From: a virus
Strand: one strand, 5' to 3'
Virus record (IMG/VR): IMGVR_UViG_3300017788_000070
Coordinates: 1 to 39,357 of that record
DNA length: 39,357 bases
The notes beneath the pieces were generated by a model. That model was not told where the DNA came from, made no database searches, and saw nothing but the letters and a program-made list of their open reading frames with translations. A program made the translations under genes and the position numbers. How positions within the stretch are numbered: the first letter of the stretch is position 1; every line of letters begins with the position of its first letter. Below are positions 18,782-38,847 of the stretch, in pieces.

Positions 18782-19257
18782 CTAAGTAACTCTGTAATAG
18801 TTTTTATATAATTATTGAAATCTTCATCGTCTACAGAAGCTTGCGCAATCATTCCCGGAGGGGGAGCTGAAGGCAGTCCCATCATTGCTGGGTCTACTCC
18901 GCCGCCCATCCCAGAAGGTGCGCCCATCATCGCAGGGTCCGTAGGAGGGGGAGATCCTGCTGGAGGTAATCCTCCTCCGCCTAGAAGTTGCATCATAGCT
19001 ATTTGCGCATCCATCAACTGTTGCAACATATCTTTGATAGATGCAATTTCTTGTTCAATTGGAGCAGCTGGAGCAGCAGGCGCTCCGCCCATCATTGCAG
19101 GATCCATAGGTGGTGCTCCGCCCATCATTGCAGGATCCATAGGTGGTGCCCCCATAGGGGGTTGTCCCGGCGGAGGAACTGGGTTACCGCCAGGAGCTGG
19201 AATAACAGCTTGCTTTGATCTGCCGCCGATAAAGAAATCTAGATAATTGTTTGGCAT
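18778..19257 (-). CDS. Pro/Met/Gly-rich repeat protein
   Basis: 159 aa, ATG 19257, weak GGGTG site. Residues 20-60 consist of Pro, Gly, Ala and Met, with two identical copies of an 11-residue unit containing PPMDPAMMGGA and further DPAMMG copies near residues 108 and 122. A central helix, APIEQEIASIKDMLQQLMDA (about 69-88), could oligomerise, and the end YIKTITELLR is helical. Similar Pro/Met-rich proteins with a short central helix occur next to structural genes in other large phages; I know no proven role. A partial copy of its central helix coding region lies upstream at 19345-19390. Low-complexity composition limits any homology call. Confidence 0.68.
   Translation of the reverse strand: MPNNYLDFFIGGRSKQAVIPAPGGNPVPPPGQPPMGAPPMDPAMMGGAPPMDPAMMGGAPAAPAAPIEQEIASIKDMLQQLMDAQIAMMQLLGGGGLPPAGSPPPTDPAMMGAPSGMGGGVDPAMMGLPSAPPPGMIAQASVDDEDFNNYIKTITELLR
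19082..19147 (-). repeat. Tandem repeat, 2 x 33 bp, in the Pro/Met-rich gene
   Basis: Two identical 33-bp units (19082-19114 and 19115-19147) encode the duplicated 11-residue PPMDPAMMG unit. Exact identity between the units points to a recent slippage or duplication event. Confidence 0.9.
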
Positions 19258-19404: not shown

Positions 19405-22400
19405 TCAGTCAATGCCCGTGGTGGGCGGCTCAGTTTGTTCCGTAGACGGTGGCAAGCCTGGGGGATATTTACGTGGAAGAAATGGAGATGCCTGCACACC
19501 AGACAAACATATTTGTGTATGCGTAGTGCAATGTATATTTGCGTAGCCGAGATTTACTCCACTAAGTTTAAGTGGAGCGCGTTGGACGTTAAATGCTGCA
19601 TTTATACTTCCTACACAACCTACTCTGCAGGAGCAAACGCAAGATTTTCCATCTATCGTAAACTTGCAGGAAAGTTCAACATAATTTATGGTGACTATGT
19701 TTCCAAAATCAGCGCCGTCAATATTTAACTTCCCTATAATTGGAACTGGGCTGTATGCCGTATACAGCAGGGAAAGTTTTGGCGGATATAAAGAAACACC
19801 ACTGCATCCATAGATAGTCTCGCAATCGTTAGCCCCGGATATCTTAAGTAAAGAATTAACGGATGACTGCAAACCTACTAATAAATATAAACTTGCTGCC
19901 TCAGTAGATACTTTGGCATTAACAAGTTTAGTGGAAATTGTTAATTTTAAATCAGCCGGTACTAAATTTAATCGGGGTGTCGCACCTCCTTGTAAAAGTT
20001 TTGTATTACTATCTATAATTAAAGTAGGGGCAGATACTTTAAACTTACAAAGACTTACATTTACAAATATAACATTGCTTTGATTTAACTTTACACTAAA
20101 TTCAGCAAGTACTGGAGCATGGTGATCTGCTGGTTGAGTAGGAGTACTCATTCTTTGACCCCTATGTGAAACAGTCACATCAAACAATCCTACCCAGCTT
20201 TGAGGACGTCCTGAGGTTTCGATTAACTTATTAGTCTCTACGGACAAAAGATCATTATAGTTATACAAAAGCGGCAATTCATAAACTTCAATGGGATCTT
20301 GACCTGGAGCTGTATTTTTATAGGGGTGATTACTAGGAAGACTTGCTTGCAGATTAAACTTATGAGCAAGATAGCCTTCTACGATATTTATCTGTGTTTC
20401 AGTTAAGGACTCCTCAAATGCAAGTACTTCTGCATATATGTCATCGCTATCTACGTAGCTATAAGTAGTACTTGATCCAGAAGTAAATCCCACAACAGGG
20501 CGGGACATGTTGTACCTGGTTGGATGAGATCCAGAGGAAATCAAATTGCTCTGAAAAGTACTCTCTATATCTATTTCAGCACCATTTATTCTTATACCGT
20601 TATAAGTGGGGGATCCATAATAGGCGCACGCTATATTGTTACCAGTTACGGGAGAAACTGAAATAGCAGTCTTTTTCAATTGGTCATAGTACAGAACGGG
20701 CCTGCCTTGATGAAATCCAAAACCTGAAACTTTATTGGCACTCGATGATATGTAAGTCTTTCCAAATGCCAAGTTATAGTTAGAGCTAGATACGGTCTTG
20801 TTGTATACGATAAAATAAGTAAAGGCACTTAGTCCTAAAGACATAGAAGAAGTAACTAAGTCGTCTTCCTGAGAGGAAACCTTATCGAATTGTGCGCCTC
20901 TGTAAGAGCCATTGAATACAACTGATAAAGGTCTTCGAAGAGCAGAGGTAGGTGCAAAGTTAGCAGCACTAGTAGTATTGCTGCCGCTAGAGGCCCAGCT
21001 AGACACTTCGCTGCTAGGAGTAGGTAGAGATGTACTCTTATACCAAACCAATGGCAATGATACGGTGCTCGATGCGCCCGGCTCCCAATTTAAAATCTCA
21101 GCTATTCTTCCCGCTACATGGGCTCCATTACCAGAAGATAACAGTGCTTCCGTTCTGGCCGTTCCTCCAAATCTCCCTCTTAAATATGAGGGATATGTAA
21201 TTGGATTAACTGTGGTAAGTGATATAGAAGTGGCGTTTTCTGAAATGCCGGATACTGTTTCTGAAGTGCCATAGTCAATATTTTGCAAATTAAGCTGAGT
21301 ATCATCTATAGAACGCAAAATATAATCTGCTGCTGTAGAGTTATCTGAAATATCTTCTGGTTGCCGCAAAACTTTTTGTCCTAGGATACGAGAATCGAGA
21401 TTCATCCCAAACAAAGAAGCAGAATTTATTTCACACGATACACCAGAGTGTGGCATAACTGACAGCACGTATTGAGTATCAAGTCCAGTTGCTGCTCCAG
21501 ATGGCCAAGTGTCCACGCAGGAGAAGGTTTCTGCAAAGTGAACAGGTTTATCTATTGAGACTACCTCAGTGTCTCCAGTGGCTATAAACTTTCTAATATT
21601 AGTTTTTATTCCATTAAAATATCTATCCAGAGCTACCACTACAGCCCAGGAGTCGACTGCACCAAAAAGACCTGCCACATAAGACATTCCTATCAAAGAG
21701 CTGTCACCAAACTTAGCTTTATCTGTATAGTCATACATTGACACATCTGGTAAAGAAAAGTATTTTCTAATAATACTGGTGTCTATACTGTAGTCAACAG
21801 AAGATGATGCTCCGACGGAGTCTTGGTATCCCCACTTGACCATTTGTCCGACGGATGTCAGTGCATATATATGAGATCTATATGTGCTTACTTGTGCGAT
21901 AACGGCATCCTGAAGACTCTCAGTGGGAATTGAACGCAATGCTATTGTAAACGGTGGAACTGGATAGTCTGGTATAGTGCACGCTGCGGGTATAAGGTCC
22001 CCTCCAACTATCTGTATAGCGTTAGTGTCTCTATCAACTATTATCGTATATCCAGAGCCAAACATGTGGTCTCCGGTACTGTGCTCCCATTGTTTGAATC
22101 TGCCGGCAGCAACAATCTTAGCTTTCTTTGTACCGCCTCTGCGATATACAGCAGGAATATTTATGGCGTCTGTTACTCTAGATGTATCTTCTCTATAGGC
22201 CGTTTGGCAATTGACACCATAATATGGCTCGCCTTGTGGAGTTCTTACGCTAGTTGGACGATTAAAATAAAAACTATGCGTTGGAGGCAGTATCTGATTG
22301 CACAGATATCCAGAAGTATGAACCATATAGCCTTCTACCAACTCTGAATCAAGCGTGTTCTCGTCTCCTTCAGTGAGGTCTTCATGGCCATTCCTATTTA

Positions 22401-25400
22401 TAAACATTAATCCTTTAGCAGATGGACCGCCGACAGGTACAAGGCAGTTAAATCCACTTGATGCAGACATTAATGCTGTAAATTTTCCACCTGCCGCAAC
22501 TTGTCCAACTATACTTGAATTATCAAGCGCATATTTAAAGCCGGGTATATCAGTTTGGCCGTGGGCATTATCCCCAAATGCTACGGCGCTGCCGACAGGC
22601 GCTGTAAACGCTCCTCCCGATATAGGTACCGTAAAGTTTTCAAATAAGTTTCCCGCTACATGATCTATTCCACAGCTTATGCTGGCAAACTTCATTGTGT
22701 TAAATGGCTCTGGTATTGGCGTATCTGGCCCGCTGGAAGATCCGTCATATCTTCCAAAAGACACAAGCGTTCTGTCCTGGCGAATGCCGACAGTCATTCG
22801 GTCGCCGCACTCTACATCTAACAGACCGGACACTTCGCCCTCAGGAGGAATAGCCCCATGAGTTGAACTGCCCCATACAAACGCGGTTCCATCGTTACGC
22901 AATACTGCAGCGTGTGCAAACCTGCAGGTCACCTTGGTAAGCGCGTCAATACTCTTTATCTTCTCGGGCGGCTCCAAATTAGACCCCGCTACATCACCCC
23001 AAAATATTAGCGAGCCCTCAGTTCCATTTATATCATCGCTAACTATTGCAAAATATGCGTTCTCAGCGCTAGCCATCGAGATAACATGTTTTAGATCCCC
23101 AAGATCTGTAGAAGTATAAAAGTAGTCTTCATTTCTAGCCCTAATGGAGTCAGGTATTTGATTTGCATAAGGAACTGCCGCCTGTGAACTCGTAACAGGG
23201 GGAGACACTACCACATGATTGTAAGGTCCAACTAAAGTCTCATTATCTGAATTTGGAGTTACGTTGACAGCAAGGCGATCGTCAGGTTCCGGTATGAAAG
23301 CCTGCCCCCTCCATTCAAGTTGACCTCCAGGCCCCGGACTTGCAGTCTGCTCTCTGTAATTGCTACCCCAGGCATAAACATTAGTGCCGTTGGAGGCAAC
23401 CATGTGGCTCGCACGCATTCCCCTGCCAAGAACCCAAGAACTACTTGGTGAAGCAGGTGCGTCGTTTGCTAAATTCCACTGGTCTGGAGGCTGCGTACTT
23501 CCAACTCCAGGACATAGTATAACACCAGACGAATTTACAACAAAAAAATGATCTTTAGTAGATCCAATTTTGTTTTGTACCAAAGCGCCGCTATTTCCAG
23601 ATGGACCACCCCAGCCGCTATAAGAATTATTTCCCCACCAATATACAAACCCATTGCTACTTTTTCTTGCTGCAATTCTGAAATAATTACATGCTATCTC
23701 CGTTACAGCTTGATTAGATATAGCGCTTGGAATATTTCCTCTATCGTCATCTATATTTCCAAACACCACAAGCGTATCGTCTGACTTGATCGCCACTGCA
23801 AAGCTATATCCGCATGCGACCTTCTTGCACGCCCCCAGATTTGCCGGCAAGGCACTATTGTTGTACAACCCCCACACATATAATTGACTGTTATCGCTTC
23901 TTATGCCAACTGCAAGCTGGCCTCCTATCTCAATATCTTTTAGTGGGGGAAGATTTGAAGGAAGAGGAATTATGCCGCTCGAGGGGGTGTAGCCAGCTGC
24001 TATTAAAGTTCCATCTTCGTTCAAAATTAACGTGGCTTCTCCATTAGTCACTACCTTTTTAACAGATGTATTATTGTCTGTAAATGTTTTTATAAGAGTA
24101 CGCTGAAAATATGAGTCAGCCCCCCAAGCAACAAGTTTGTCGGTCAATGTCTTAGCAACAGAAAAGTCATAGCCTAATGATATATTGGTTAAGTTTGCAG
24201 ATAAAGTTGTTTCAGGATAATAGCTTTGTGGCAATACCCTTCTGGTAATCGAGTCATAACATATGATACTGCCTGCTATGGCTGATTCTTCTCGACTACA
24301 GGGAATGTCATTTTCAATAAGTGGCGATGCGTCGAACGGCGTCGTCTCAGGCGGGGCGTAAATATCGACTGTGAATGTATTGTTGTTTGCATATCTTTCG
24401 CTAAGGGGACCTGCTATTTTAAATCCGTCTCTATATATAGTAATCTGACTAGGGGCGTAAGCATGATTAGAGCTATACTGGGGTTCACCAGGAAAAACTA
24501 CCTTAGGCCAAACTCTGAGATTTTGATTAACTCCAAGTATGTTGGACGGAGTACTAGAATCATGGTTATAGTTATAATCCATGATTGCATTTGTTGGGTC
24601 CCCTGTCATAAAATCTGTTATAGGTCCGAGGTATATTTTGAAAGAAGATCCCCCAGACGGAGCATATCTTGCAGTAACAGGTTGCGAACCGCTATATATT
24701 GTGTCCTGGGGCTCCACTGCGGAAATCTGTCTATAGGTTCTCTGCACTTTAGCCATGAAATAATTTTTTGGACCTACAATATCCTGTACGCCCTTTAGGA
24801 ATGGGCCTTGACCATAGTCCCCATTGCACAAATTTTGTGTTAAAGGTTCCTCGTATGCAGCTCCAAAATTAGCTTTAAAATCCCTGTTTTCATCGAGAGT
24901 GACCAGAGATCCTCTTACTTTATTCTTATTCTCGACGGCGTTCTTATACAGTGCAAAGAAATAGGAGTCCCCCGCCACAAACTTAGTCGCCCCTTGAGTT
25001 GGCATAAACATTCTATCAGTACTCTTTAGCGCGAAACTACTCACGGAGCTGTCGTAGATCCTACCAATATAGTGCATGAATTTGTCATACCTCAATGACG
25101 GCACTAAGTCAGATACGTATTTATTTTCAGGATCAGAAGCACTCTCCCACGGTATATACTCTCCGTCTACCTTTATAGAGAAAGTGATTCCCGGAGTCAC
25201 GGGATCGTCGTCAGGTGCGTGGACGCTACCCTGATTTTGCATTCCAATATATATAAGTTTTGGGGGAGAGGGAAAATACACACTATATTTAAGATTAGCG
25301 TTATTGCTGTCTCCTACAGCTATTCTGTATCCTAGAGGATCCGCTCTCGAAATAGACATCTTAAAAGAAATAAGCGCTAAAGGATTGACTTGCTGCAGTA

Positions 25401-28400
25401 GGGTGACAGTTTGGTCATTCTCTAAGATAAACTGATCAGCATTTAAGAACAGGACTGCACCTGTTGGAAAATTGCCATAGCAATCTTGACCAACCCCAAG
25501 AGCAGGGGCATCTGGATACTCAAAGTATCCATCTATAAACTTAGCTTTATCTAAGGTTGCGTCGACTGGAAATATCGACATTGATCTATCGTCAGTCATC
25601 GACGGTTCAGCTAAGTCCTCAGTGGCATACGAATCTGAGAAATTTCTGAAATATCCAGTTACAAAATGCTCTATTGCATCTTCAGTACAACTTGTTCCGC
25701 TGAATTCGTAAGGATTCCATTCTTTTCTATTGGTGCCCGCAGGTCTAGTTGGGTAGTTGGACCCCCAGGCCAAAACAGAATCCTGGTCATCTATTGCAAC
25801 TGTGTGAAATTGCGCACAAACAACAGATTTAAATCCATACCCAGAAGCGACACTAGGCACTGTAGCCTGGCCTAGGTCCATCATCCAAGACTTCCCTAAT
25901 TCGTTAACACATAAGCCTTTTCCTATTAAATAAGAGTTATAAGGAAATGGTCCAAACAAAGGTATATAAGAGTTTAGACTAAGGTCTCCCCCAGTATGGG
26001 AGGTGACAGATCCTACTACAGGATCTCCAGGATTCGGAGTCTGTACACAAAAGCCTATGTCCTTGAGACCAAATGCAGACCTGTACCCAAAATAAACTTC
26101 CCTGAATTGATAGTTATTTCCATTTATTGTTGAATCCCTTCTCTTGAATTTGTAAAGAAGTTCAAAAGAATTTAGGCTGGTACGCTCGAGACTTCCAGAT
26201 CTTGGAAGAATTCCATATTGCTTATAACGCAGCGCTATCCCCGGCGGCAGATTTTCTTTATATTCCGGTAAGTGCGTTATATGTTTAGCTGCAACGGCAG
26301 GATGTGGGAACGAATTTGCTAAAATGTTTCTTGTAGTACTAATTTGATGCTTTATAACCTCAACATTTTTTATATCAATTCCTATTTCGCTATACCAAGC
26401 AGGATTCATAACTGGCTCAATAAACGAATAGTCTTCAAGATTAGATGGAGTTTCAAATGGAAGTAAAATCTCATCTAAAATTGGGCCGCCATCAGACTCC
26501 GTAGGGTGGTATAAAGTTGCTCCGGTAAATACGAAAATCTTATTACCAAGACCCTCTATGTTTCCCTGCCATAACAAATGGTACCCCGACAGTGAATCCT
26601 TTGTTTCTGCTGGAATAAGGCTATCGCCATTTGGAACTATCGTAAAGCCAGCTGGAAGTGGTCCTAAAAATCTCTCACAGTAAGCGGCTTTTTTAGAAAA
26701 TCCAAATACTTGGGTAGTTTCAGAGTTTTCTGCAGACATCGTAACATCTGGTGTTGCGTAAAGATTTAACTCTGACGCACTTATTGGAGTTGGGACGTTG
26801 AAGAATGCTCCAGAAGATGTAACTATCGATGGAGTGCCGTATAGAGTTCGTGTATTATTGAAGGGATTGAAAATCCTTACTTGTACTCTTCTATTATTTA
26901 TTTTTGGAGATATTCTTATGGAAGTCGGACCAAGATAAATAAATTGCACCAATCCCTCGTCGGTAAGGAGTCGGTTAAGATCAAAGAAAAACATTGACGA
27001 TCTAATATATAAGCTATTTCCAAGTTGAGGCCCAAATCCCATGTATGAAGGGGAACCCAAAATTTTTAACATACTTTGAAATTGCTCTGAAGCCGGAGAT
27101 ACGTCCTCTAACAATCTACTTGCAAGAGTAGTAGCCAGAGCTGCCGCCTGAGTATCATTGGATGGACTCCATGTTAGGTCCGGGTAATAAGTTTGATAAT
27201 CCAGCGGATTAGGTGAAGCGGAATATCCCAGGGGATTTCCCCAGACAATATATGACTTGTCTAAGTTAGTTGCTGCTGGATCGAGATCTACTGCGCTAAA
27301 ATTGCACTCTAGATACTCTTTGTGCTGTCCACCAGTATACAAATATAGATCAGAATCATAGTGGCCAACCTTCCAAGATGGCAAACTGTCTTGGCTAAAC
27401 CAAATTCTTTGTATGGGGGCCCCAGATTCAGTAGTAGATGCTACTTCAAATTTGAAAAAACTTTCAGGATCTGAAGTCGGTGGCCACGAAATACCAGGAC
27501 TACCGTTCCCCCAGCGCTCCCTAGTCACCCCTAAATCCGACCAATCAGAATGCAAAGGAGTAGAAACGGTGGTATATTGGATGTAGAATGACAGTAGTTG
27601 GTGATAGGTTTCCAACGCCAAATACTCGATCTTTAATCTATACTTTTTCCCATCTATCGCACTCGTCCCTACTGAATAGTAGTAATTGTCTAATTCCGTA
27701 TTTAGAGATATAGAATAAGCCTGTCCACTCGCTGTAACTATACTTCCCGAAGTTACAGTTGCAGACACAGCAGTTGGAATCCAGTAAGTGCCGGATTCCA
27801 CCTGTCCAGGAATATTTTTAAAATTTATATCTCCAAAAATTACAGTATCTGAGGGGGACTTTAAAACAAACTTGGTCTTATCAGAACTATATCTCGTCAG
27901 CTCTAAATGATCTCTAGAGGCTTTAGAAGAAATATTATCTTTTCTAACTCCTATGGCGTGATCCCATCCGCACGAAACAGACCAGAATCTCATTCTGTAT
28001 TTATGATAACTTGGATCGTATGAAAGACCCTCACACTTTGGAACACTGCATTGCCCTTGCTGATTATCTCCCCATGCAGCAACGGTATCGTCTATTTCAT
28101 CGTCTACCACACTCCCCACTGTTGAAGTTACATCAGTGGATTGGGTCGTTCGCAAAGCTATGCAAAAATCTCCACCAGCTCCTATTTGCTTGGCTTTAAG
28201 TCCTGGTGGAACAGAGGTTTGATTTAGATTGTTTCTACCCCAACATACTACGGTTCCGTTACTCTTTAAGGCAATACAGTGATTGTCTCCAGCGTCAACC
28301 GCCACAACGTCAGATCCCGCATCTGTGACACTGGAAGGAGGTGTACATTGACCGTAATCATTGTCGCCCCAGCAAACTACTGTTCCGTCATTTTTTAACG

Positions 28401-31368
28401 CCACTGAGTGCTTTGAGCCACAGGCAAGCACCTTTCCTGCATAAACTATAAGAACACCAGAGGGCGCCCCTACTATTGACTTAGATGCAAGAGTAACTGC
28501 AGCCGGAATTGAGCCATAATAGTTTCCGAAGTCTTCTAAAACTTTTACTGTAGATTCTCCATTGTTTTTTATGGACTGAGCGGCTGCAAAATCGTTTCCT
28601 ATAGCAAATTGTACGATGGGCAGCGGCCCCTCATCAGTTACTGCTTCTGTAGTAACTTGAGAACAATTAAGTCTATCGTACCAAATTGTGCCACGGTTAT
28701 TGCAGCCCCAGCTCTTTAAAGATCCGTCATCTTTTATGATGGATATATGGGCAACATTAAAATCAAAGTCCTTCACATTATTTATATAGCCGTCAGACAA
28801 GAATGAGCTATATACGTCAGACGGCACCGTCAAGTGTCCAAAAGTGTTATGTCCCCATATATACAATCTTTTTCCAGTCGTTCCCGAGGATGGAATTGGA
28901 GCAGTAAGAACAGCGTGTATGGATTCTCCAAGCTTTACCTTAGAAACTTTTCCACCGCTGAGCAAATAATCCCGTAGGGGTCTTGGAAGAATGGGAAGTA
29001 TGTCCGTCGACACCTGATAGCCGAAGGAAGACGGAACTACTCTACGTCCTGCGAGAGTACCGTCCTCCTTTACAAACATATGAAGACTGTTTACGTCGAA
29101 GGATGACACCGATAAAGCTTTATCGGTATTACCATTTAGCAACTCAAAATCAGCACCTTCGGTGTTTATTTTTACTCCAAGTTCACTGGCCCCCGATCTT
29201 GATATAGCCATGGAGAATTGACCTATGAGAAGATTTTTATCTCCTTCAAAGGACAGTATTCTTTCTGAGGACTGACCTTGATCTGGAACTACGATCTGAG
29301 GATCTGAAAATGCAAGTACCTTTTTGGTGCTCACGGTGGGGGCTGTATTTGGCTCTCCCCTTAAATCATGTATACATGAAATTTTATGAATATTGGCAAA
29401 CTCGTCTCCCGGCAAGCATTTTAATATGAACCATTGATACCCTGGATCAATAACAACTCTATCTGGATCTTGCTCCGATATTCCTAATATTGGAATGTCT
29501 ATGTATGCCGAAGACGGCAGAGATGAATATGGCTGCAAAGTCATTCTCAGGACGCAATCAGCGCCTGATCTAAACAGTCTATTTGGATCTACATTTTCTC
29601 CGGACAGCTCAGTGAGCAGAACGGTGTATTCAACTGGCGGATTTTCCGCTCCGCCTAAACCTCCCTGTGCGCCAACTATCATGTTTTGCTGGATTAGGGT
29701 TGTGTTAAAATTGGAGTAAAAGTGTCTTACTCCAGGTTTTATTGGTATAAAGCTTATTGAAGAATCCGATGCATGTAGCTGCGCTGTTCCGGAGACATCC
29801 TCATTGACAGGAATGAGAGCGGCATTTACTTTGAATGACGTTCCATTATTTTGTAAAAATTGTTGAAATTTGCTCGGACTAAACAGTCGCATGGATGCAG
29901 TGGAATACGTTGGAGAGAATCCCTCGATGTAAGTTCCAACTGTGCTCTCTATCCTGGAGTGAGCTAGCTTAGTAGTTGAAGAGTCTGAAGAATAAAAGTC
30001 AGATGCCAGAGACACATCTCTTTGTGGATCGGTTACATTATTATCAGGTCTATTGTGTCTCACCAAGGATGCGCCTAAGAAAAGTACAGGCGTAGTCGGA
30101 AAACTCCAAGATTGACCAGGAGAAGTAAAGGTATTTTCTAAGGCCAGAGTAGTTGCAGTTCCTGACCCGGAATTCATAGTTGCTACGGAAGAATCATAAG
30201 ATCTAGGAAATTGCGAGTACGCTCCTAATCTAGAGATATTTGGACTTAATGCATCAAATCCAACTATAGACTTACGCAATGAAGAATTATCCAGAATAGA
30301 GGCCCTGAGGAATATAAGAGTTCCCGAAGCACGTGATCTAGTGGGGTATTCTGATAATCGCGAAAGCTGAATTGCGTTTACACTTGCAGAAAGAGAGGCG
30401 GATCCCGGTTGACCGTTTCCCACCACAAATGTTTGTATTCCAAATACAGTCTGAGTTGAAAATATAGGAGAACTTATTTCATCAGAGGGTGAAGCCTTTG
30501 ATGTTCCTGTAGGTAGTGGGTATCTGGCGAATTCTTGTAACTGAGTGGGTACATCTGCAGATCCACCTGATCCATATAGATACATCTGGTTAAGGGTAAA
30601 TTTTGCCTGTATGTTGTCGGCAGTCAGAGAACTAACCCCCTGCACTGTAAAGTCAGCGCTGGGAGTTGTAAATTTGGCGGCAGAGCTACTACTTAGTCCT
30701 AAGTTTAAATTAAGGTTTAAAAGATTTACATCTAGCCTTGACTTTATTTCGTCAGGGTTTATAGAAAAGTCCTGCAAATGTCCAGTTGCAGACAATCTGC
30801 CTCGCACTAGGCTCAAATCGCGTTTGTTTGCAATTTGAAGTATTAAGCCAAATTTTGGGCGATCATTAACAACAAAAGAAATAAATATATTCGCAGCCGA
30901 CCCTGTTAAAATGTCCCCTTGCACTCTAAAAGAACTATTTAAATTTTGCGGAATTAGATCTTTTAAAATATTAATAGTAGTAGTAAGTGATATATGTTGT
31001 AATGTAAAGAAACATGGACTAGGTGTAAGCGTAGCACCTTCTAGCACTATAAATTCTGAATCCCCTACACTTCGAACATCTAACTTTGGAACTACTGAGC
31101 CACCCCACGTGCTTTGAATTACTAGAAGTGACGGTTCACCAGCAAATCTTAAATCAATTGGTGACGCCGCAAGTTCAGTAGAAGAAAAACTTTCTATTGG
31201 TGGAACAGAAAACCTATGCCTCTGGTTTTCGGCATTATTTCTATACTGAGCGTCAATGAGTCCTAAATTTGAAGTTACTCTAAGACTAGATGAAAGCTGT
31301 ACTGGTGCCGCAGCACCTGTTTGCATATCCCCCGTAACTTGAGATGTTAATAGGTTGCAGAGAGGCAT
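19405..31368 (-). CDS. Giant RCC1-repeat, LamG-containing virion protein (about 3987 aa)
   Basis: The ATG at 31368 shares its first base with the preceding stop (TAATG); the frame also allows TTG 31377. About 16 WG cores of RCC1 (beta-propeller) type are visible, in clusters near residues 800-1145 (VCWGDNDYGQC, VCWGRNNLNQT, AAWGDNQQGQC), 1850-1880 (LAWGSNY), 2400-2970 (VAWGADS, YVWGLYN, YWWGNNS, YAWGSNY, FVWGSST, VAFGDNAHGQT) and about 3170 (VKWGYQD), each after the usual 'AAG..H..AL..DGTV' strand. Residues about 3470-3680 form a LamG/concanavalin-like domain ending YLAHKFNLQASLPSNHPYK. The N and C termini are Ser/Asn/Leu-rich beta structure; near the C terminus is CVCSCRVGC. No signal peptide. 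Probably a tail, fibre or host-contact protein; its ligand is unknown. One of the longest phage proteins by length. Confidence 0.88.
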   Translation of the reverse strand: MPLCNLLTSQVTGDMQTGAAAPVQLSSSLRVTSNLGLIDAQYRNNAENQRHRFSVPPIESFSSTELAASPIDLRFAGEPSLLVIQSTWGGSVVPKLDVRSVGDSEFIVLEGATLTPSPCFFTLQHISLTTTINILKDLIPQNLNSSFRVQGDILTGSAANIFISFVVNDRPKFGLILQIANKRDLSLVRGRLSATGHLQDFSINPDEIKSRLDVNLLNLNLNLGLSSSSAAKFTTPSADFTVQGVSSLTADNIQAKFTLNQMYLYGSGGSADVPTQLQEFARYPLPTGTSKASPSDEISSPIFSTQTVFGIQTFVVGNGQPGSASLSASVNAIQLSRLSEYPTRSRASGTLIFLRASILDNSSLRKSIVGFDALSPNISRLGAYSQFPRSYDSSVATMNSGSGTATTLALENTFTSPGQSWSFPTTPVLFLGASLVRHNRPDNNVTDPQRDVSLASDFYSSDSSTTKLAHSRIESTVGTYIEGFSPTYSTASMRLFSPSKFQQFLQNNGTSFKVNAALIPVNEDVSGTAQLHASDSSISFIPIKPGVRHFYSNFNTTLIQQNMIVGAQGGLGGAENPPVEYTVLLTELSGENVDPNRLFRSGADCVLRMTLQPYSSLPSSAYIDIPILGISEQDPDRVVIDPGYQWFILKCLPGDEFANIHKISCIHDLRGEPNTAPTVSTKKVLAFSDPQIVVPDQGQSSERILSFEGDKNLLIGQFSMAISRSGASELGVKINTEGADFELLNGNTDKALSVSSFDVNSLHMFVKEDGTLAGRRVVPSSFGYQVSTDILPILPRPLRDYLLSGGKVSKVKLGESIHAVLTAPIPSSGTTGKRLYIWGHNTFGHLTVPSDVYSSFLSDGYINNVKDFDFNVAHISIIKDDGSLKSWGCNNRGTIWYDRLNCSQVTTEAVTDEGPLPIVQFAIGNDFAAAQSIKNNGESTVKVLEDFGNYYGSIPAAVTLASKSIVGAPSGVLIVYAGKVLACGSKHSVALKNDGTVVCWGDNDYGQCTPPSSVTDAGSDVVAVDAGDNHCIALKSNGTVVCWGRNNLNQTSVPPGLKAKQIGAGGDFCIALRTTQSTDVTSTVGSVVDDEIDDTVAAWGDNQQGQCSVPKCEGLSYDPSYHKYRMRFWSVSCGWDHAIGVRKDNISSKASRDHLELTRYSSDKTKFVLKSPSDTVIFGDINFKNIPGQVESGTYWIPTAVSATVTSGSIVTASGQAYSISLNTELDNYYYSVGTSAIDGKKYRLKIEYLALETYHQLLSFYIQYTTVSTPLHSDWSDLGVTRERWGNGSPGISWPPTSDPESFFKFEVASTTESGAPIQRIWFSQDSLPSWKVGHYDSDLYLYTGGQHKEYLECNFSAVDLDPAATNLDKSYIVWGNPLGYSASPNPLDYQTYYPDLTWSPSNDTQAAALATTLASRLLEDVSPASEQFQSMLKILGSPSYMGFGPQLGNSLYIRSSMFFFDLNRLLTDEGLVQFIYLGPTSIRISPKINNRRVQVRIFNPFNNTRTLYGTPSIVTSSGAFFNVPTPISASELNLYATPDVTMSAENSETTQVFGFSKKAAYCERFLGPLPAGFTIVPNGDSLIPAETKDSLSGYHLLWQGNIEGLGNKIFVFTGATLYHPTESDGGPILDEILLPFETPSNLEDYSFIEPVMNPAWYSEIGIDIKNVEVIKHQISTTRNILANSFPHPAVAAKHITHLPEYKENLPPGIALRYKQYGILPRSGSLERTSLNSFELLYKFKRRDSTINGNNYQFREVYFGYRSAFGLKDIGFCVQTPNPGDPVVGSVTSHTGGDLSLNSYIPLFGPFPYNSYLIGKGLCVNELGKSWMMDLGQATVPSVASGYGFKSVVCAQFHTVAIDDQDSVLAWGSNYPTRPAGTNRKEWNPYEFSGTSCTEDAIEHFVTGYFRNFSDSYATEDLAEPSMTDDRSMSIFPVDATLDKAKFIDGYFEYPDAPALGVGQDCYGNFPTGAVLFLNADQFILENDQTVTLLQQVNPLALISFKMSISRADPLGYRIAVGDSNNANLKYSVYFPSPPKLIYIGMQNQGSVHAPDDDPVTPGITFSIKVDGEYIPWESASDPENKYVSDLVPSLRYDKFMHYIGRIYDSSVSSFALKSTDRMFMPTQGATKFVAGDSYFFALYKNAVENKNKVRGSLVTLDENRDFKANFGAAYEEPLTQNLCNGDYGQGPFLKGVQDIVGPKNYFMAKVQRTYRQISAVEPQDTIYSGSQPVTARYAPSGGSSFKIYLGPITDFMTGDPTNAIMDYNYNHDSSTPSNILGVNQNLRVWPKVVFPGEPQYSSNHAYAPSQITIYRDGFKIAGPLSERYANNNTFTVDIYAPPETTPFDASPLIENDIPCSREESAIAGSIICYDSITRRVLPQSYYPETTLSANLTNISLGYDFSVAKTLTDKLVAWGADSYFQRTLIKTFTDNNTSVKKVVTNGEATLILNEDGTLIAAGYTPSSGIIPLPSNLPPLKDIEIGGQLAVGIRSDNSQLYVWGLYNNSALPANLGACKKVACGYSFAVAIKSDDTLVVFGNIDDDRGNIPSAISNQAVTEIACNYFRIAARKSSNGFVYWWGNNSYSGWGGPSGNSGALVQNKIGSTKDHFFVVNSSGVILCPGVGSTQPPDQWNLANDAPASPSSSWVLGRGMRASHMVASNGTNVYAWGSNYREQTASPGPGGQLEWRGQAFIPEPDDRLAVNVTPNSDNETLVGPYNHVVVSPPVTSSQAAVPYANQIPDSIRARNEDYFYTSTDLGDLKHVISMASAENAYFAIVSDDINGTEGSLIFWGDVAGSNLEPPEKIKSIDALTKVTCRFAHAAVLRNDGTAFVWGSSTHGAIPPEGEVSGLLDVECGDRMTVGIRQDRTLVSFGRYDGSSSGPDTPIPEPFNTMKFASISCGIDHVAGNLFENFTVPISGGAFTAPVGSAVAFGDNAHGQTDIPGFKYALDNSSIVGQVAAGGKFTALMSASSGFNCLVPVGGPSAKGLMFINRNGHEDLTEGDENTLDSELVEGYMVHTSGYLCNQILPPTHSFYFNRPTSVRTPQGEPYYGVNCQTAYREDTSRVTDAINIPAVYRRGGTKKAKIVAAGRFKQWEHSTGDHMFGSGYTIIVDRDTNAIQIVGGDLIPAACTIPDYPVPPFTIALRSIPTESLQDAVIAQVSTYRSHIYALTSVGQMVKWGYQDSVGASSSVDYSIDTSIIRKYFSLPDVSMYDYTDKAKFGDSSLIGMSYVAGLFGAVDSWAVVVALDRYFNGIKTNIRKFIATGDTEVVSIDKPVHFAETFSCVDTWPSGAATGLDTQYVLSVMPHSGVSCEINSASLFGMNLDSRILGQKVLRQPEDISDNSTAADYILRSIDDTQLNLQNIDYGTSETVSGISENATSISLTTVNPITYPSYLRGRFGGTARTEALLSSGNGAHVAGRIAEILNWEPGASSTVSLPLVWYKSTSLPTPSSEVSSWASSGSNTTSAANFAPTSALRRPLSVVFNGSYRGAQFDKVSSQEDDLVTSSMSLGLSAFTYFIVYNKTVSSSNYNLAFGKTYISSSANKVSGFGFHQGRPVLYYDQLKKTAISVSPVTGNNIACAYYGSPTYNGIRINGAEIDIESTFQSNLISSGSHPTRYNMSRPVVGFTSGSSTTYSYVDSDDIYAEVLAFEESLTETQINIVEGYLAHKFNLQASLPSNHPYKNTAPGQDPIEVYELPLLYNYNDLLSVETNKLIETSGRPQSWVGLFDVTVSHRGQRMSTPTQPADHHAPVLAEFSVKLNQSNVIFVNVSLCKFKVSAPTLIIDSNTKLLQGGATPRLNLVPADLKLTISTKLVNAKVSTEAASLYLLVGLQSSVNSLLKISGANDCETIYGCSGVSLYPPKLSLLYTAYSPVPIIGKLNIDGADFGNIVTINYVELSCKFTIDGKSCVCSCRVGCVGSINAAFNVQRAPLKLSGVNLGYANIHCTTHTQICLSGVQASPFLPRKYPPGLPPSTEQTEPPTTGID

Positions 31369-34300
31369 TAGGGGCAATCCGAACGCATTCCAATAATAGT
31401 ATTAAGAATAGAAGAAACGTTGAGCCGTCCAACAATGTTCGGCGGAAAGAAAGCTTTATTGTACAAAGTTACTGTCGGCACCACTAATTTCGTAGGAATA
31501 TTTGAAGGATTAAATCCTATGACTATTAAAAAAGTGTCTAAAGAATTTGTTGTATTAAATCTAAAAGCAATATTTGAGTTACCTAAATCTATATCTTGTG
31601 CAGTACTTATGAATGCGCCAGGAGGTAAAGAGTGCATGGTTACACCTATATCTTTTACCCTATCCTGCAGGAGTTCTGTCGGTCTATGTGGAATTATGTT
31701 GAATATACTAAAAAAATTAGCAGTAATTCTTGGAAGCTTAAGTAAAGGCTGTCTTACTGGGTTAGCCGGACTGGGAGGGTAACTTTCTGCCACATACGCG
31801 GCCTGAGTTTCACGATTACCGAGAGGCCCATATTTTTTAGTGCCGCAGATAAAGTTAGGGTCTGAAATAAAAGACTTTGCAAACTTTCTATTGGTGATAA
31901 TTGTGGTTTGCGCTTCACAGGGGCAGCTTGTAGTCGGAATAGTAGATGCAGTACTAAAGCTTCCTATATCGGCAACATACGAAGGCCCTAACCCTGAAAA
32001 TTCGTTCCAAACTCCGGATCTATCAGGGCCAAATAAAACATATGGAACATCGCCAGCGTCTACTTCAGCCTCTATGGTAGCTGTAACGGTATATCCGGTA
32101 TAAGAGTGATTAGTATTTGTTATGTCCTCAATCACTATGTTTACGGTCGTCTGATCAAACTTGGGCACGGTTATCGGTGCTAGATCCCATGGCGGCTCCG
32201 TCACTGCAAACGAGGTGGGATTCACGGATACCGGGTAGTAGCACCCTTGCTTAGACAGTGCAGGTATGGTGGCAGCTAGATTGAGGCCGTTTATGTAGAA
32301 GTTGGCTGTCGACTGAGTGTATGAGCTCGGGTTTGCAGGATTTAGTCCGGCCTCGCTATATGTGTCCGACGGATTGTCTGAATAGGAATACGCCTTGGAT
32401 GGAGAGAATCTATCCGATATCTTGAGAGAGACAGAGGCTCCGGCATTGACCTTTAGGTATGCGGGATTGGTTCCGGCTCGTACTCTATCCAAAAGGACAA
32501 ATGTGCTCCTTCTGTAAGGAAGTTTAAATGTCAGATCCGATAGGGGCACATCTACACCCGTGCTTGCATGGTTGAACGTGAGCGTTACGTCGAGCCCCCT
32601 GAGCCTCTTGGAGAATCGAGCAGCAGGTATGGTTATGGGCACAGTGCATGTACTTACCGTGGTGCCTGCGACAAAAGTCAAAGGAGTTGCCGTACTTTCA
32701 GCATAAACCACCCTAACAGGATCGGTGACCAAGGTATACGATTCTCCGCAATATACTTTTGCCGATCTAGAGAACAGCATTGGCACTATCGGAGCCATGC
32801 CGTCAGAAAGCTTTCTTTCCTTTCCTGCGGTCTGATTTTCACATCCGTAGCCCACTATGCCTAGCTTGCATATCCTTCTTTGGCCGAAGTGAATCTCGCC
32901 ATTTGGTCTGGACATGAAATGCAGCCTGAAGTCTGCCAGGTTGTTTAGGTGAGTATTGTCCTGTATTACGTTGTAGTTTGGACAAGCGGAGCTGAACAAA
33001 ATGGCACTGTGCAGGGATCCTGCCGCATAGTCCACCACGTAGTCTGTGTAGCTTTGGCGTGCAAAGTTGAGCGGAGAGTGGTATTCAAGCTGGGTATTAA
33101 GCGATGCGTAGTTTGATTGAGCCTCTTCTGCTGCCGTAGCGCAGCACACGGTTCTATTCAATCCTTGGCCAGACTGCAACGAAGAGAACGATACCCACGG
33201 TCGATACACGCCTACGGGAATGCCTGCCATCATTGTGCCATTGAGCAAAGTCCTACCAGTCAAAATAGGATTTGTGAATGACGTTGGATACTGATCCGGC
33301 TGGAACTGCAGCATCGACTGCATAGACTCGCAAAGATGGTGGCCTGCCGGTAAATTCATTTCTAACGAAGATGTTTGATTAAATCCTCCGTCTTCTGATG
33401 TCGTAGCAGTCCCCAGGGTGAAGCCATTTGTGATAGCCTGGACAAAGTTAGGTAAAGCGTACGAACTGTCGATTACACTATGAGCATTCCATCGATAGTG
33501 ACCATAGTAGTTCTCCCAATCATCAGTATTAACTGAGAGAGACTGAGTAGGGCTCGAGGCTAATGCGTCATATCTACTTATGGCATGGGTATCTAGAAAC
33601 CAACTTCCATATGTCGCAACCCCCCGGTGACCATATGGGTATCCAAGTAGTGAAGTGCCGTACTCTCTGCCATCACCTGCTCCAAATGCAAGAAGTACAG
33701 GACGGCTAAATTGATGATCTGCGGTTCCGGCTGCGGCGGCAGCTATAAGTTTTGTTGGAATTTCAGTCAAACTGCCTGAGGTAAATAGCCTGGTACCAAG
33801 TTCAGTAACTAATTTAGGGACTTGGGCTTGCAAAGCTGGGCTGCCAGAAGTCACCAAATTGGACAAAGACTTAGCGATCGGCCAATCCCCGTCACTTACA
33901 GCTAATATGTGAGCCTTGCCTGCCTTAATTTCTTTAAATGGAATACTAGGTATTAAGGTAAGATCCAAAGCAGAGCTGTAATATCTATATATCGTAGAGT
34001 CTACGTATGATCTACGGGACTGAAAATAGCAGGACCATGCAGTAGGCCTATTGTCCATTCCAACCACTGCACACACCATGTTATTGCTTGCCAGTACAGT
34101 TGTAGCATTAACATAACTTATAGAGACTGGAGTGGTATTTATTGTCGGGTTGGCTATACCAGAACTTTGTTTAATTTCTCCAAAGTACAAAGACTTAGTA
34201 TTAATCTTTATACCAGTGGCATTACTGTGTATGTAGGCGGCGGATGAACTACTAGAATTACCCACTTTATTAGATCTTACTAGCCTTCCTCCAGATGAAA

Positions 34301-37300
34301 ATGGATTATTTGCTTGCATTCTTCCGTATAGGCTAAGCACACTGGCGGAAAGCTGGCCCTGGCTAAAAAATCCCGCCAAAGAGTTGTCTTCGGCAGAAGT
34401 ACCTGAATAATAATAATCAGATCCGGTAAAGAAAACAGAACTTTGATGATCAAAGGTTGCTCCAGAATTATTATAAGTGGCGGTTGTGCCGTTGGCTGCC
34501 TGTCCCGGATATAGCTTTACCGAGCTTTGAGACAGAGTGTCTACATACCCGGCATATATTGAATAGTCTCCACATGAAGCCATATCCTTTACTTTAAATT
34601 TGCTTATTGTTACTGGGGAGCCACTTTGAAAACTAGAGCCCACATTTGAAAGTAGCGATGTAGAGTTTTCATAAGTCCAGGGTGGATCACTGACACTTCT
34701 ATTAAGCAATTCGAATGCTCTTGGAACATAATTGTCATTATCAGGATTGAAATCATTTGAAGAGCCGTTGTACAAATTTCTAATAAAACTTGCGGCCCCC
34801 ATTCCACATATAGTTCCAGCCGGATTATATTGTTGAACCCCAGCTACACCTGTTGTATTGGTGGGACTATTGGATGATCTTGACCATTCCCCCACTGCAT
34901 CTGATCTTGGCATTAATTGACATATTCCGGTAGGGCCTGTAGCAAATCGAACAGCGCCTCTTGTTCCATATACGCTGCCCCAGGATACTACTCTTCCATG
35001 CAGTTCTACTCTGTCGTTACTTGTATAAATGTTAGCAGATGTTCCTCTATATACATCGTAGACTATTCCGTGAGTACTGAATGGCCCGCAGACTACTTTT
35101 TTAAATCTAAGATCTTGAAAATATCTAGATTTACTATTGGCGTTAATATCAGTAGCAAATCTAAATAAATGAGGAGCAGAGTAAGCGGGCGTGTGGGGGG
35201 ATGCCGTATGATATGGAGCTCGGTATTGGCTCATGCTTTGACAGTAGTGCGGATACGATCCAAATAGCCCTACATAAATAAAGGGTGAGCCATCGAGTCC
35301 GCCTAGGACCGGATCCATCGCGTTGCTGCCGTCAGATGTACCTAGACTGTAGGAACATCCCCAATGAGGACGTGTACTAGTGTCGACTGCAGTGCTATAC
35401 TCATGTGCTTGGAATATAGTATCTATGTTTACTTCTGGATCGTTATTTGCAGAATTGTAACTAGGTCCTCTGCCAGCCCCTATACACTGTATGTGAAAGA
35501 ATCTGTCTACTACAGCAGTGTGGAATGCTCCGGCTGCTATATACCCCTTGCATCTAATTCCTGCCTCGTCTTGCTCATTTGCGCAAAAGTTTGCAGCAGT
35601 TTTTTGACCAACTACATTGCCGGCCCGATCTGATACTGAAGAAACACTGCTGGAAGAATAGGGTGTAAATACTGCATAACTATTTACTGCTGCATTAAGA
35701 GTTCCTGGAGGATTTTGGACTGGGTTTGCAAATCCGTAATACGTAGATCCATTTACTACTGTTCCTTGTATAACGCATTGAGCAAAGTGCACGCTTTGGC
35801 GTACGTTGGCGGGCGCTTCGCTTGATGGATATGGCGTGCTAGAATGAACTAAATAGCCTGGATACGTAACACCTGATAGGGCGCTGGTCACAGTGTGGTT
35901 GCCTGCCCCCCAAGCATACAAAACTCCCGATTTTGATCTTGCTAAACTATGGAAGGCGCCGGCAGAGACCTCCATGATTGGGTCAAGATTTTGGCCAGTC
36001 CTTACATTGCCCGTCGAATCTATTAGATTTATTTCTGCCGGCACAGAACACTGATTGTAGGTGTCGTTCCCCCATGCATAGACCCACCCCGTTGCAGTGA
36101 CTATAAGCACATGTCCAGGAAGATTTTTAAAATTTATATGCCCTGCGTACCTTACGTTATTGGCAGCTTCATTGTAAATAGGCGGATAGTGATACGCCAT
36201 ATAGTATGTTTTAAAATTATAGAATTTACTGTCGTGATTAAGATAGCTATTGAAAGCTGCGAAGTCTCTGGCAAGAAATTCAGCCAATTCATCTGAGTAC
36301 ACTGAGTGCGTATGAAAGGTCTCTTCGCCAAGACTGGTGTCGTTAGTGCCTATTCCAGCCAATGCCGGAGGAGAGTTTGAAACAGCTACATCTATTATTG
36401 CAGCACTAAGGCCAATCACTGAAGGGGGCACTATGCATTGACCCCATCTGTTGCTTCCCCATACGGCTATCTTTCCGCCGGATACTATCGCTCCGTTAAA
36501 GGTGCCGAGAGCCATAACATGACCCCCGCCACCGTGTATTATGTGATCAGCACTAAATGCTGCCACTCCGGCAGTTGTTTTATATATCGAATCTGCCGAA
36601 TACCCATTGGCAAGATCTGCACCTAGCGCCATGTTCGCAGCAGGTATATAGTCTGCGCTTCTCGGAGGTGGATGTATCAGCTTGTTTATTACCTGCGCAG
36701 CGCTGGATATGTAACCTGGGTCGTAATGAGGTTTGAACATGTATTCTAAATGTTTGGTATTTTTATTTAGAAATACAAATCCATACTGAGTGGAAACTAC
36801 GTCCGAATATTGGTTCCTTGCTGTAGTCTCTGGGAATATATCTGACCACCACTGGTTATTCTGCGTTTCACTATTATTAGATAAAAAAGAATAATTAATT
36901 CCAAAAGCAGGTTTTATTCCAGCGCCTTCTATGCTGGAATTAGTACTGGCAAAGGAGGTGCCACGATAGTAGTGAACATCTAGAAATTTAGCCCTAGGAG
37001 AGGATTGGTTAAGAGCAGAAAACATTCCTATCCCTACATAACTACTGCTTTCTTGAATTGCTGCAAACGTATATACACCTGCCGCAGAGCTTTCAGATTT
37101 GTAGAATGCAAGTTTTTTAATATAGTTAGCAGAAGAAACTCCCGATCCAAACACACTTTGGTTTAGATCAAACGCCCCCACTGAGTTAGGGGCCGTACTT
37201 AGACAAAGTAATAAACTATTATCAAGATCAGTCTCCCCCATTAAGGTTGAGTTAGTGTGATATTGCGCATCGGTTCTTTGGCTTGCGGAAATATCGACTA

Positions 37301-38000
37301 CTGTGTTCGACGAGGGGATAACGGGGTACTTCTTAACTTGCACTGGTCCTGCGCCCCTCAAATCGCTAGAACTGGAAGAATTCCTGAAATATATGTTAGT
37401 AGAATTTCCAGAAAGATTTATGCTCATTCTAGGAGTCGAAGTTCCATAGTTCCAGAGCATATTTACCCCATCAGCCATATTCTGATAGGTGAAAGTATGT
37501 TGAAAAGATGAACTTGACTGATGCACGTTATTGACATCTGATGGAGGAGTGCCAGAAGTAGTATTAGTGATACTGGTAGGAGATGTTGTGAAATACAGCT
37601 CAGCTGGAAGTCCTGCCAAAGATATGCTTTTTATACCTAGTGTTTGCTCTGGAAGATATGGGCCAATTGGATTTACAGTCTCGTATGTGGCCACATGCCT
37701 ACCGCCTGCAATATTATAAGTAGGTTGCTTGACCTCTAGCCGTATCCTATTACCAGAATATGGAATATCGTCGTGAACTATCGCCCTAAGCACTACACTA
37801 TTTGATGAGGCAAACACTGAATCATTTACTAGTGTACCTTCGCCTTTAACTTTAAATTTAATTTTTATATTTACTGGAAATGCTCCAGGGCATGTTAAAG
37901 CGGACCCCTCGGTAGTACCCAAGGTGCTGTCAAGAGATCCTTGAAATTTTATCCCGGATGCTGAAAAGTCCGGGTTCACTCCAAGATATATGGTGGCCAT
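31368..38000 (-). CDS. Giant RCC1-repeat virion protein (2210 aa)
   Basis: ATG 38000 with AGAGG about 6 nt upstream, and it ends in the TAATG overlap with the second giant gene, so the two are made from one message. RCC1-type elements are clearest at residues about 515-530 (IAVWGSNRWGQCIVPP), 640-650 (VYAWGNDTYNQCSVP), 685-705 (AGAFHSLARSKSGVLYAWG), and are degenerate near 825 (AAGAFHTAVV), 975-1007 (VSWGSVYG), 1140, 1357 (KAGKAHILAVSDG) and 1660. The N-terminal 150 residues (MATIYLGVNPDFSAS...) and the last 400 are beta-rich and Ser/Thr/Asn/Pro-rich without known domain. It resembles its neighbour in composition and repeat type, so the two may be old duplicates or parts of one complex. Role inferred as tail or fibre. 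Confidence 0.85.
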   Translation of the reverse strand: MATIYLGVNPDFSASGIKFQGSLDSTLGTTEGSALTCPGAFPVNIKIKFKVKGEGTLVNDSVFASSNSVVLRAIVHDDIPYSGNRIRLEVKQPTYNIAGGRHVATYETVNPIGPYLPEQTLGIKSISLAGLPAELYFTTSPTSITNTTSGTPPSDVNNVHQSSSSFQHTFTYQNMADGVNMLWNYGTSTPRMSINLSGNSTNIYFRNSSSSSDLRGAGPVQVKKYPVIPSSNTVVDISASQRTDAQYHTNSTLMGETDLDNSLLLCLSTAPNSVGAFDLNQSVFGSGVSSANYIKKLAFYKSESSAAGVYTFAAIQESSSYVGIGMFSALNQSSPRAKFLDVHYYRGTSFASTNSSIEGAGIKPAFGINYSFLSNNSETQNNQWWSDIFPETTARNQYSDVVSTQYGFVFLNKNTKHLEYMFKPHYDPGYISSAAQVINKLIHPPPRSADYIPAANMALGADLANGYSADSIYKTTAGVAAFSADHIIHGGGGHVMALGTFNGAIVSGGKIAVWGSNRWGQCIVPPSVIGLSAAIIDVAVSNSPPALAGIGTNDTSLGEETFHTHSVYSDELAEFLARDFAAFNSYLNHDSKFYNFKTYYMAYHYPPIYNEAANNVRYAGHINFKNLPGHVLIVTATGWVYAWGNDTYNQCSVPAEINLIDSTGNVRTGQNLDPIMEVSAGAFHSLARSKSGVLYAWGAGNHTVTSALSGVTYPGYLVHSSTPYPSSEAPANVRQSVHFAQCVIQGTVVNGSTYYGFANPVQNPPGTLNAAVNSYAVFTPYSSSSVSSVSDRAGNVVGQKTAANFCANEQDEAGIRCKGYIAAGAFHTAVVDRFFHIQCIGAGRGPSYNSANNDPEVNIDTIFQAHEYSTAVDTSTRPHWGCSYSLGTSDGSNAMDPVLGGLDGSPFIYVGLFGSYPHYCQSMSQYRAPYHTASPHTPAYSAPHLFRFATDINANSKSRYFQDLRFKKVVCGPFSTHGIVYDVYRGTSANIYTSNDRVELHGRVVSWGSVYGTRGAVRFATGPTGICQLMPRSDAVGEWSRSSNSPTNTTGVAGVQQYNPAGTICGMGAASFIRNLYNGSSNDFNPDNDNYVPRAFELLNRSVSDPPWTYENSTSLLSNVGSSFQSGSPVTISKFKVKDMASCGDYSIYAGYVDTLSQSSVKLYPGQAANGTTATYNNSGATFDHQSSVFFTGSDYYYSGTSAEDNSLAGFFSQGQLSASVLSLYGRMQANNPFSSGGRLVRSNKVGNSSSSSAAYIHSNATGIKINTKSLYFGEIKQSSGIANPTINTTPVSISYVNATTVLASNNMVCAVVGMDNRPTAWSCYFQSRRSYVDSTIYRYYSSALDLTLIPSIPFKEIKAGKAHILAVSDGDWPIAKSLSNLVTSGSPALQAQVPKLVTELGTRLFTSGSLTEIPTKLIAAAAAGTADHQFSRPVLLAFGAGDGREYGTSLLGYPYGHRGVATYGSWFLDTHAISRYDALASSPTQSLSVNTDDWENYYGHYRWNAHSVIDSSYALPNFVQAITNGFTLGTATTSEDGGFNQTSSLEMNLPAGHHLCESMQSMLQFQPDQYPTSFTNPILTGRTLLNGTMMAGIPVGVYRPWVSFSSLQSGQGLNRTVCCATAAEEAQSNYASLNTQLEYHSPLNFARQSYTDYVVDYAAGSLHSAILFSSACPNYNVIQDNTHLNNLADFRLHFMSRPNGEIHFGQRRICKLGIVGYGCENQTAGKERKLSDGMAPIVPMLFSRSAKVYCGESYTLVTDPVRVVYAESTATPLTFVAGTTVSTCTVPITIPAARFSKRLRGLDVTLTFNHASTGVDVPLSDLTFKLPYRRSTFVLLDRVRAGTNPAYLKVNAGASVSLKISDRFSPSKAYSYSDNPSDTYSEAGLNPANPSSYTQSTANFYINGLNLAATIPALSKQGCYYPVSVNPTSFAVTEPPWDLAPITVPKFDQTTVNIVIEDITNTNHSYTGYTVTATIEAEVDAGDVPYVLFGPDRSGVWNEFSGLGPSYVADIGSFSTASTIPTTSCPCEAQTTIITNRKFAKSFISDPNFICGTKKYGPLGNRETQAAYVAESYPPSPANPVRQPLLKLPRITANFFSIFNIIPHRPTELLQDRVKDIGVTMHSLPPGAFISTAQDIDLGNSNIAFRFNTTNSLDTFLIVIGFNPSNIPTKLVVPTVTLYNKAFFPPNIVGRLNVSSILNTIIGMRSDCP

Positions 38001-38012
38001 CTGGCCTCTAGT

Positions 38013-38225
38013 TTAAAAAATTGTTGGAATAATTTTTTTACCTACCGAAGGAGCAGGCTCTGGAGCAGGCTCTGGAGCAGGCTCTGGAGCAGGCTCTGGA
38101 GCAGGCTCTATTTCTGCTAAAGTAGGATTTTCCGCAGATTCTGAAATTGGATCTTCAATCATCTTATTATCCTCCTTGTAAATTTTAGATATTTTAGGAT
38201 GATGTATTTTTTTGTCTTTAGACAT
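38013..38225 (-). CDS. Small protein with Pro-Glu repeat and two possible starts
   Basis: 70 aa from ATG 38225 (AAGGAG 5 nt upstream, right after the terminator). An in-frame ATG at 38162 gives 49 aa and has an even better AAGGAGG 8 nt upstream inside the AATTTACAAGGAGG leader. The N-terminal 21 residues of the long form are basic (MSKDKKIHHPKISKIYKEDNK); the rest is acidic with a PEPA repeat, ending SVGKKIIPTIF. The PEPA tract would be an extended spacer, as in TonB-like or fibre-linking proteins, but there is no membrane segment. It stands 12 nt before the first giant gene. Function unknown. Confidence 0.6.
   Translation of the reverse strand: MSKDKKIHHPKISKIYKEDNKMIEDPISESAENPTLAEIEPAPEPAPEPAPEPAPEPAPSVGKKIIPTIF
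38050..38109 (-). repeat. Tandem repeat, 5 x 12 bp, coding for PEPA units
   Basis: Five exact copies of ggagcaggctct (plus strand) in a row, encoding Ala-Pro-Glu-Pro units on the minus strand. Length variation by slippage would keep the frame. Confidence 0.92.
38171..38184 (-). promoter_or_regulatory. AATTTACAAGGAGG leader/ribosome binding site
   Basis: It lies 8 nt before the in-frame ATG at 38162 of the PEPA gene and belongs to the four-copy AATTTACAA(A) family. A second strong site (AAGGAG, 38231-38236) serves ATG 38225, so both a 70-aa and a 49-aa product are possible. Confidence 0.55.
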
Positions 38226-38240
38226 AAGTACTCCTTAAAA

Positions 38241-38272
38241 TAATAAGGCTGCCCATTTGAGCAGCCTTATTA
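38241..38272 (-). terminator. Rho-independent terminator
   Basis: Perfect 12-bp stem (taataaggctgc / gcagccttatta) with an 8-nt loop. On the minus strand the stem is followed by UUUUAAGG, giving a short U-rich tail (UUAUUAUUUU including the stem end). It separates the coiled-coil/membrane-peptide genes from the PEPA and giant genes. It reads as a normal, perhaps leaky, terminator. Confidence 0.8.
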
Positions 38273-38836: not shown

Positions 38837-38847
38837 AAATTCAAAGA

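Follow-up and report, generated by a model that had tools for sequence, protein, structure and literature searches.

RCC1-repeat proteins are already on record in tailed phages, both as virion proteins and as giant genes. Mass spectrometry has found them in the virions of W70 (PMC11370258) and GAP32 (PMC5259590), and phAPEC6 encodes eleven (PMC7247149). Proteins of the W70 and GAP32 type (W70_237-239 and GAP32 gp1, from Vequintavirinae and Rak2-like phages; phrog_4219 family) are about 400 amino acids (aa) long, consist of a single propeller and often occur in tandem. In Salicola phage SCTP-2, a cultivated phage, one RCC1 gene (gp442) is 10.4 kb long. In annotation and discussion alike, phage RCC1 proteins continue to be treated as factors of chromosome condensation. 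The fold and repeat signature are those of UVR8, BLIP-II and RCC1, which have other functions; a common fold does not imply a common ligand. A β-propeller is also present in a myovirus structural protein, phiKZ gp131, the C-terminal domain of which is seven-bladed (4GBF) and was reported at the baseplate periphery (PMC4901313).

The window analysed here, a virus record of 39,357 bases, is a fragment in which nearly all real genes lie on the minus strand. It contains two adjacent RCC1 genes, A and B, whose products share their repeats with the W70 and GAP32 proteins but are far larger, have few dense repeats and include long stretches outside RCC1 (Table 1). What is new here is the size, the pairing and the exchange of the pair as a cassette. 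An earlier note on this DNA had taken RCC1 proteins to be rare in virions, a view that the mass spectrometry of W70 and GAP32 and the dozens of viral contigs that carry RCC1 do not support.

Table 1. Features of the giant RCC1 gene pair and its surroundings in the window
Feature	Position	Strand	Basis
Major capsid protein, homologous to that of Arash (gp226)	4220..5197	-	homology
RNA polymerase beta-prime C-terminal gene (Rpb1_5), conserved flank	15860..17740	-	profile match
Pro/Met-rich protein directly downstream of B, conserved cassette flank	18778..19257	-	relatives compared
Gene B, 3987-aa giant protein with two RCC1 clusters	19405..31368	-	uninterrupted ORF from ATG at 31368
Candidate ConA/LamG-like domain of B (residues 3430-3690), with EGYLAHKFNLQASLPSNHPYK at its end	20299..21081	-	motif
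RCC1 cluster 2 of B (residues 2389-2943), with about 10 units in orthologues	22540..24204	-	profiles
B residues 1841-1872, lone RCC1 unit, same in orthologues	25753..25848	-	profiles
RCC1 cluster 1 of B (residues 811-1150), predicted to form a propeller of about seven blades	27919..28938	-	profiles and model
B residues 1-279, fast-evolving N-terminal region	30532..31368	-	relatives compared
TAATG, stop of A overlapping start of B	31366..31370	-	junction sequence
Gene A, 2210-aa giant protein with RCC1 core	31368..38000	-	uninterrupted ORF
A residues 487-701, three secure RCC1 units	35898..36542	-	profiles and PDB sequence matches
Small Pro/Glu-rich gene directly upstream of A	38013..38225	-	same-place counterpart in sister phage G004
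Terminator-like hairpin AATAAGGCTGC-N8-GCAGCCTTATT then ATTTTA, upstream of cassette	38242..38271	-	read from sequence
Conserved membrane and coiled-coil protein, upstream	38429..38851	-	weak hol-like PHROG match

Both genes are open on the minus strand with the sizes and positions given in the earlier note, and the TAATG contact that it described is evident in the junction letters (...CCCTAATGCCT...). If B began at an upstream TTG instead, its product would have 3990 aa. The overlap likely couples the translation of the two genes. In relatives, the stop of A and the start of B are 1-3 nt apart (near-abutting in G007, G008 and G010), and the tight linkage is thus conserved. Together the genes make up 18.6 kb of late coding sequence inside a structural gene block, and their products are near-neutral to acidic (pI 6.6 for A and 5.2 for B).

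The Pfam profile RCC1_2 matches eight stretches of B (E = 6e-48, 160 bits) and also matches A (E = 6e-7, 29.5 bits), with a cut-off of 22 bits. At E < 0.01, an independent profile, for which small RCC1 proteins from other phages were the sole source, detects 10 units in B, a single one in A, 11-13 and 1-2 in the respective orthologues, and none in 30 shuffled versions of the pair. The profile searches thus recover the RCC1 repeats that the earlier note had read in both proteins, and show them to be real. Two PHROG RCC1 families match B (phrog_7220 at 2e-14 and phrog_16766 at 4e-13) and none matches A; sequence matches of A in the PDB are to BLIP-II and UVR8 (E 6e-10 to 1e-9). Units were mapped with a profile made from the A/B protein family itself. 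Dense repeats are confined to the two clusters of B, which has another single unit near residue 3157 besides the one in Table 1. In A, conserved degenerate G-x-x-H/Y and WG blocks, read by eye, continue beyond residue 701 to about residue 1760. Within A, only residues 487-701 are secure. The greater share of both sequences has no recognisable RCC1.

Cluster 1 of B is predicted to fold as an RCC1 propeller of about seven blades. We modelled B residues 785-1180 with AF2 from 18 sequences; because RCC1 homologues were among them, the model confirms the fold rather than discovering it. Mean pLDDT is 60, with blades at 70-93 and the third blade below 50. The nearest structures by Foldseek and VIA-align are BLIP-II, UVR8, RPGR and RCC1 (Foldseek E 2e-14), and superposition on UVR8 gives Z 20.6 and an rmsd of 3.3 over 252 residues. 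The propellers expected by the earlier note are thus supported for this cluster; the model of A residues 478-1677, with four homologues in the input, has a pLDDT of 25. The cluster 1 model also resembles the propeller of phiKZ gp131 (Z 11.7), a protein that is much smaller than B, shows no sequence relation to it and has a binding role that is likewise putative.

Towards the C-terminus of B, the EGYLAHKFNLQASLPSNHPYK motif is one that B shares with cyanophage virion structural proteins, and the C-terminal motif of a B orthologue matches phage structural proteins at E 5e-7 to 4e-5 over about 40 residues only. The candidate ConA/LamG-like domain that ends in this motif has no match in Pfam or the PDB at E <= 1. 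Fibres usually attach by their N-terminus, and the N-terminus is the most variable part of B: the length before a conserved anchor is 279, 402, 509 and 921 aa in four phages, the longest of which (G010) contains a tandem array of a 135-nt unit (45 aa). Short perfect tandem repeats also occur in both small Pro-rich flank genes (19082-19149 and 38050-38109; 33-nt and 12-nt units).

Upstream of A, the small Pro/Glu-rich gene is followed by the terminator-like hairpin, which is absent from the list of our hairpin scan, and then by a small membrane protein gene. Downstream of B come the Pro/Met-rich protein, a 281-aa protein and the RNA polymerase (RNAP) beta-prime C-terminal gene. The capsid homologue identifies the window as a virion-structure module, and a homologue of the Arash protease is encoded further on. 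Salmonella phage Arash is a myovirus in whose virions RNAP subunits rank with the most abundant proteins (PMC10585845), which makes a virion polymerase likely here as well. The C-terminal half of RNAP beta-prime is a separate gene in the head module (window 15860-17740, minus strand); in the relative G002, a single gene at another genome position encodes the remaining RNAP (1640 aa; L031 12002-16921).

Relatives were reached from the RNAP beta-prime gene, which led to eight IMG/VR contigs. As the earlier note had suggested looking for, an adjacent A-B pair is found in the near-identical G002, G007 and G009 (2109 and 4030 aa) and in G008 (2152 and 3908 aa). G010 has an A gene of 2177 aa and the start of B, the remainder of which was not found at the opposite contig end. 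In G002 (174,569 bases), the pair accounts for about 10.5% of the sequence, which also encodes a baseplate wedge protein, two tail-fibre-like genes and a split RNAP. The portal, terminase, capsid, tail and RNAP genes of G002 have counterparts in Arash, and most of these are also present in Vibrio phage D181; no giant RCC1 pair was seen in the stretches upstream of RNAP in Arash and D181. The source phage is uncultivated and is best explained as contractile-tailed and distantly related to Arash.

A and B are the most divergent of the large genes. Between the window and G002, the capsid is 92% identical, the protease 82% and RNAP 80%, and A and B are 41-45% and 31-38% identical. A 344-aa protein of the structural block (2642-3676, minus strand), at 28% identity to its G002 counterpart, is as divergent as gene B and is another candidate surface protein. 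The contigs of six relatives (G001, G002, G003, G005, G009 and G010) stop within gene B or no more than about 1.5 kb away, a pattern that strain variation at this gene would produce if it interrupted assembly. A diversity-generating retroelement was considered as a source of variation and rejected, as no reverse transcriptase was found in the ten relatives' contigs, which are fragments. No relatives of A were found among 50,697 phage records; in the same records, the N-terminal 2789 aa of B yield RCC1 core matches only. Bacterial homologues of full-length A were also sought, and the matches were limited to the RCC1 core.

In the sister phage G004 (L023; 183 kb), RNAP is 79% identical and the flanks are in unchanged order. 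Between them lie an 839-aa Gly/Cys-rich protein unrelated to the pair and a 262-aa protein, and no RCC1 was found in the 183 kb. The presence of other genes between unchanged flanks indicates that the cassette was exchanged or rebuilt. The 262-aa protein weakly resembles the B C-terminus (0, 1 and 5 of 300 shuffles), so kinship is only suggestive. The GC content of G004 is 66%, compared with 43-47%, a strong shift that accompanies the replacement of the pair and perhaps reflects a move to a high-GC host.

Scanning with a B profile identified 52 loci, many of them tandem RCC1 proteins of ~400 aa, as well as giants of 1758 to 4227 aa. One of these loci (L082) has another linked giant pair (4227 and 2277 aa), which comes after a tail-fibre gene and near a tail sheath stabiliser and a head-tail adaptor. 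Elsewhere among unrelated phages, RCC1 genes come after the tape measure gene (L067) or, in cyanophage S-SRM01, after the long tail fibre distal subunit. In L079, a 3840-aa protein has 46 RCC1 repeats and, in addition, four Laminin_G_3 domains, which are lectin-like. Like A and B, SCTP-2 gp442, the L082 pair and the L079 protein are giants with an RCC1 core, sometimes in a linked pair and in a tail-gene neighbourhood, although they align with A and B in the RCC1 repeats only. The L079 and L082 proteins are also far more repeat-rich, and their contigs, which may be fragments, have no detected RNAP homologue, unlike the window.

We favour the explanation that a contractile-tailed phage carries A and B in its virion, where they probably form a large surface appendage that grips the host. 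Genome position, coupling, divergence, exchange and the neighbours of RCC1 genes in other phages all point to this. An appendage with a host-surface role, already put forward in the earlier note, appears to be the best fit to the fast divergence, the cassette exchange and the placement of RCC1 genes beside tail-fibre and tape-measure genes. A and B would be produced together from one coupled message and would assemble into an appendage, tail-side or head-side, that takes hold of the host envelope. RCC1 β-propellers, long variable inserts between blades and the candidate lectin-like domain would provide many contact sites, and the gene pair would be a cassette that can be swapped when the host changes. 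We infer the presence of both proteins in virions, their assembly with each other, their surface location and their binding of ligands. A and B have no tail-fibre or attachment-domain match among PHROG tail-fibre profiles and NCBIfam; their sole PHROG tail match, phrog_13857 at 8e-5, runs through the RCC1 part. As G002 has separate tail-fibre genes, A and B need not be receptor-binding proteins, and other roles would be compatible with fast divergence too. More specifically, and only tentatively, we suggest a two-chain appendage of about 670 kDa in which several RCC1 propellers with long inserts in their blades and a lectin-like domain would sample many ligands of the host surface simultaneously, made by coupled translation and swapped as a single cassette among related phages as these move to very different hosts.

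The setting among capsid, protease and virion-RNAP homologues in a late structural block also speaks for the appendage. As for other roles, N4-like and jumbo phages have giant proteins that are ejected. The A-B pair directly precedes the RNAP beta-prime gene, whose Arash counterparts are abundant in virions (PMC10585845). They could therefore be internal virion proteins that are ejected with the DNA and act in the host at the start of infection, alongside a virion RNAP. We regard this as unlikely, given that domain searches of A and B found no enzymatic domain, that fast divergence and cassette replacement better suit surface proteins and that RCC1 genes of other phages are grouped with tail fibres. 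A role outside the virion, either within the infected cell or at its surface (perhaps as secreted or surface-exposed factors of exclusion or of the lysis stage), would find some support in the upstream membrane and coiled-coil protein with its weak holin-like match and in the terminator-like hairpin between that gene and the cassette. It seems improbable for 18.6 kb of late coding sequence inside a structural block; no signal peptide was noticed by eye, and virions of other phages contain related RCC1 proteins (PMC11370258, PMC5259590).

Condensing or ordering of capsid DNA, as proposed for the RCC1 proteins of phAPEC6 (PMC7247149) and W70 (PMC11370258), is an idea founded on the eukaryotic name, regulator of chromosome condensation. 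We give it hardly any credence for A and B, which are not basic, given also that proteins are the ligands of bacterial RCC1 folds such as BLIP-II and that RCC1 genes of other phages have tail-gene neighbourhoods. Neighbourhoods, divergence and cassette exchange point instead towards host-surface binding. The origin of the pair is a separate matter. Adjacency and an identical repeat type had led the earlier note to propose an ancient duplication, but whole and tiled profile-profile comparisons share RCC1 repeats alone (64 columns), and the similarity between the tail of A and the ends of B is inside the range of control tiles; descent from one ancestral giant gene is thus very improbable. A stalk repeat shared by the end of A and the start of B was also considered and was not significant against control tiles.

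If A and B do form a host-gripping appendage, RCC1 propellers would be phage adhesins of a class that is widespread but too little recognised, with A and B as examples of extreme size. Among the smaller phage RCC1 genes, those of ~400 aa alternate with genes of ~230 aa in five unrelated viral contigs (L057, L060, L063, L064 and L081).
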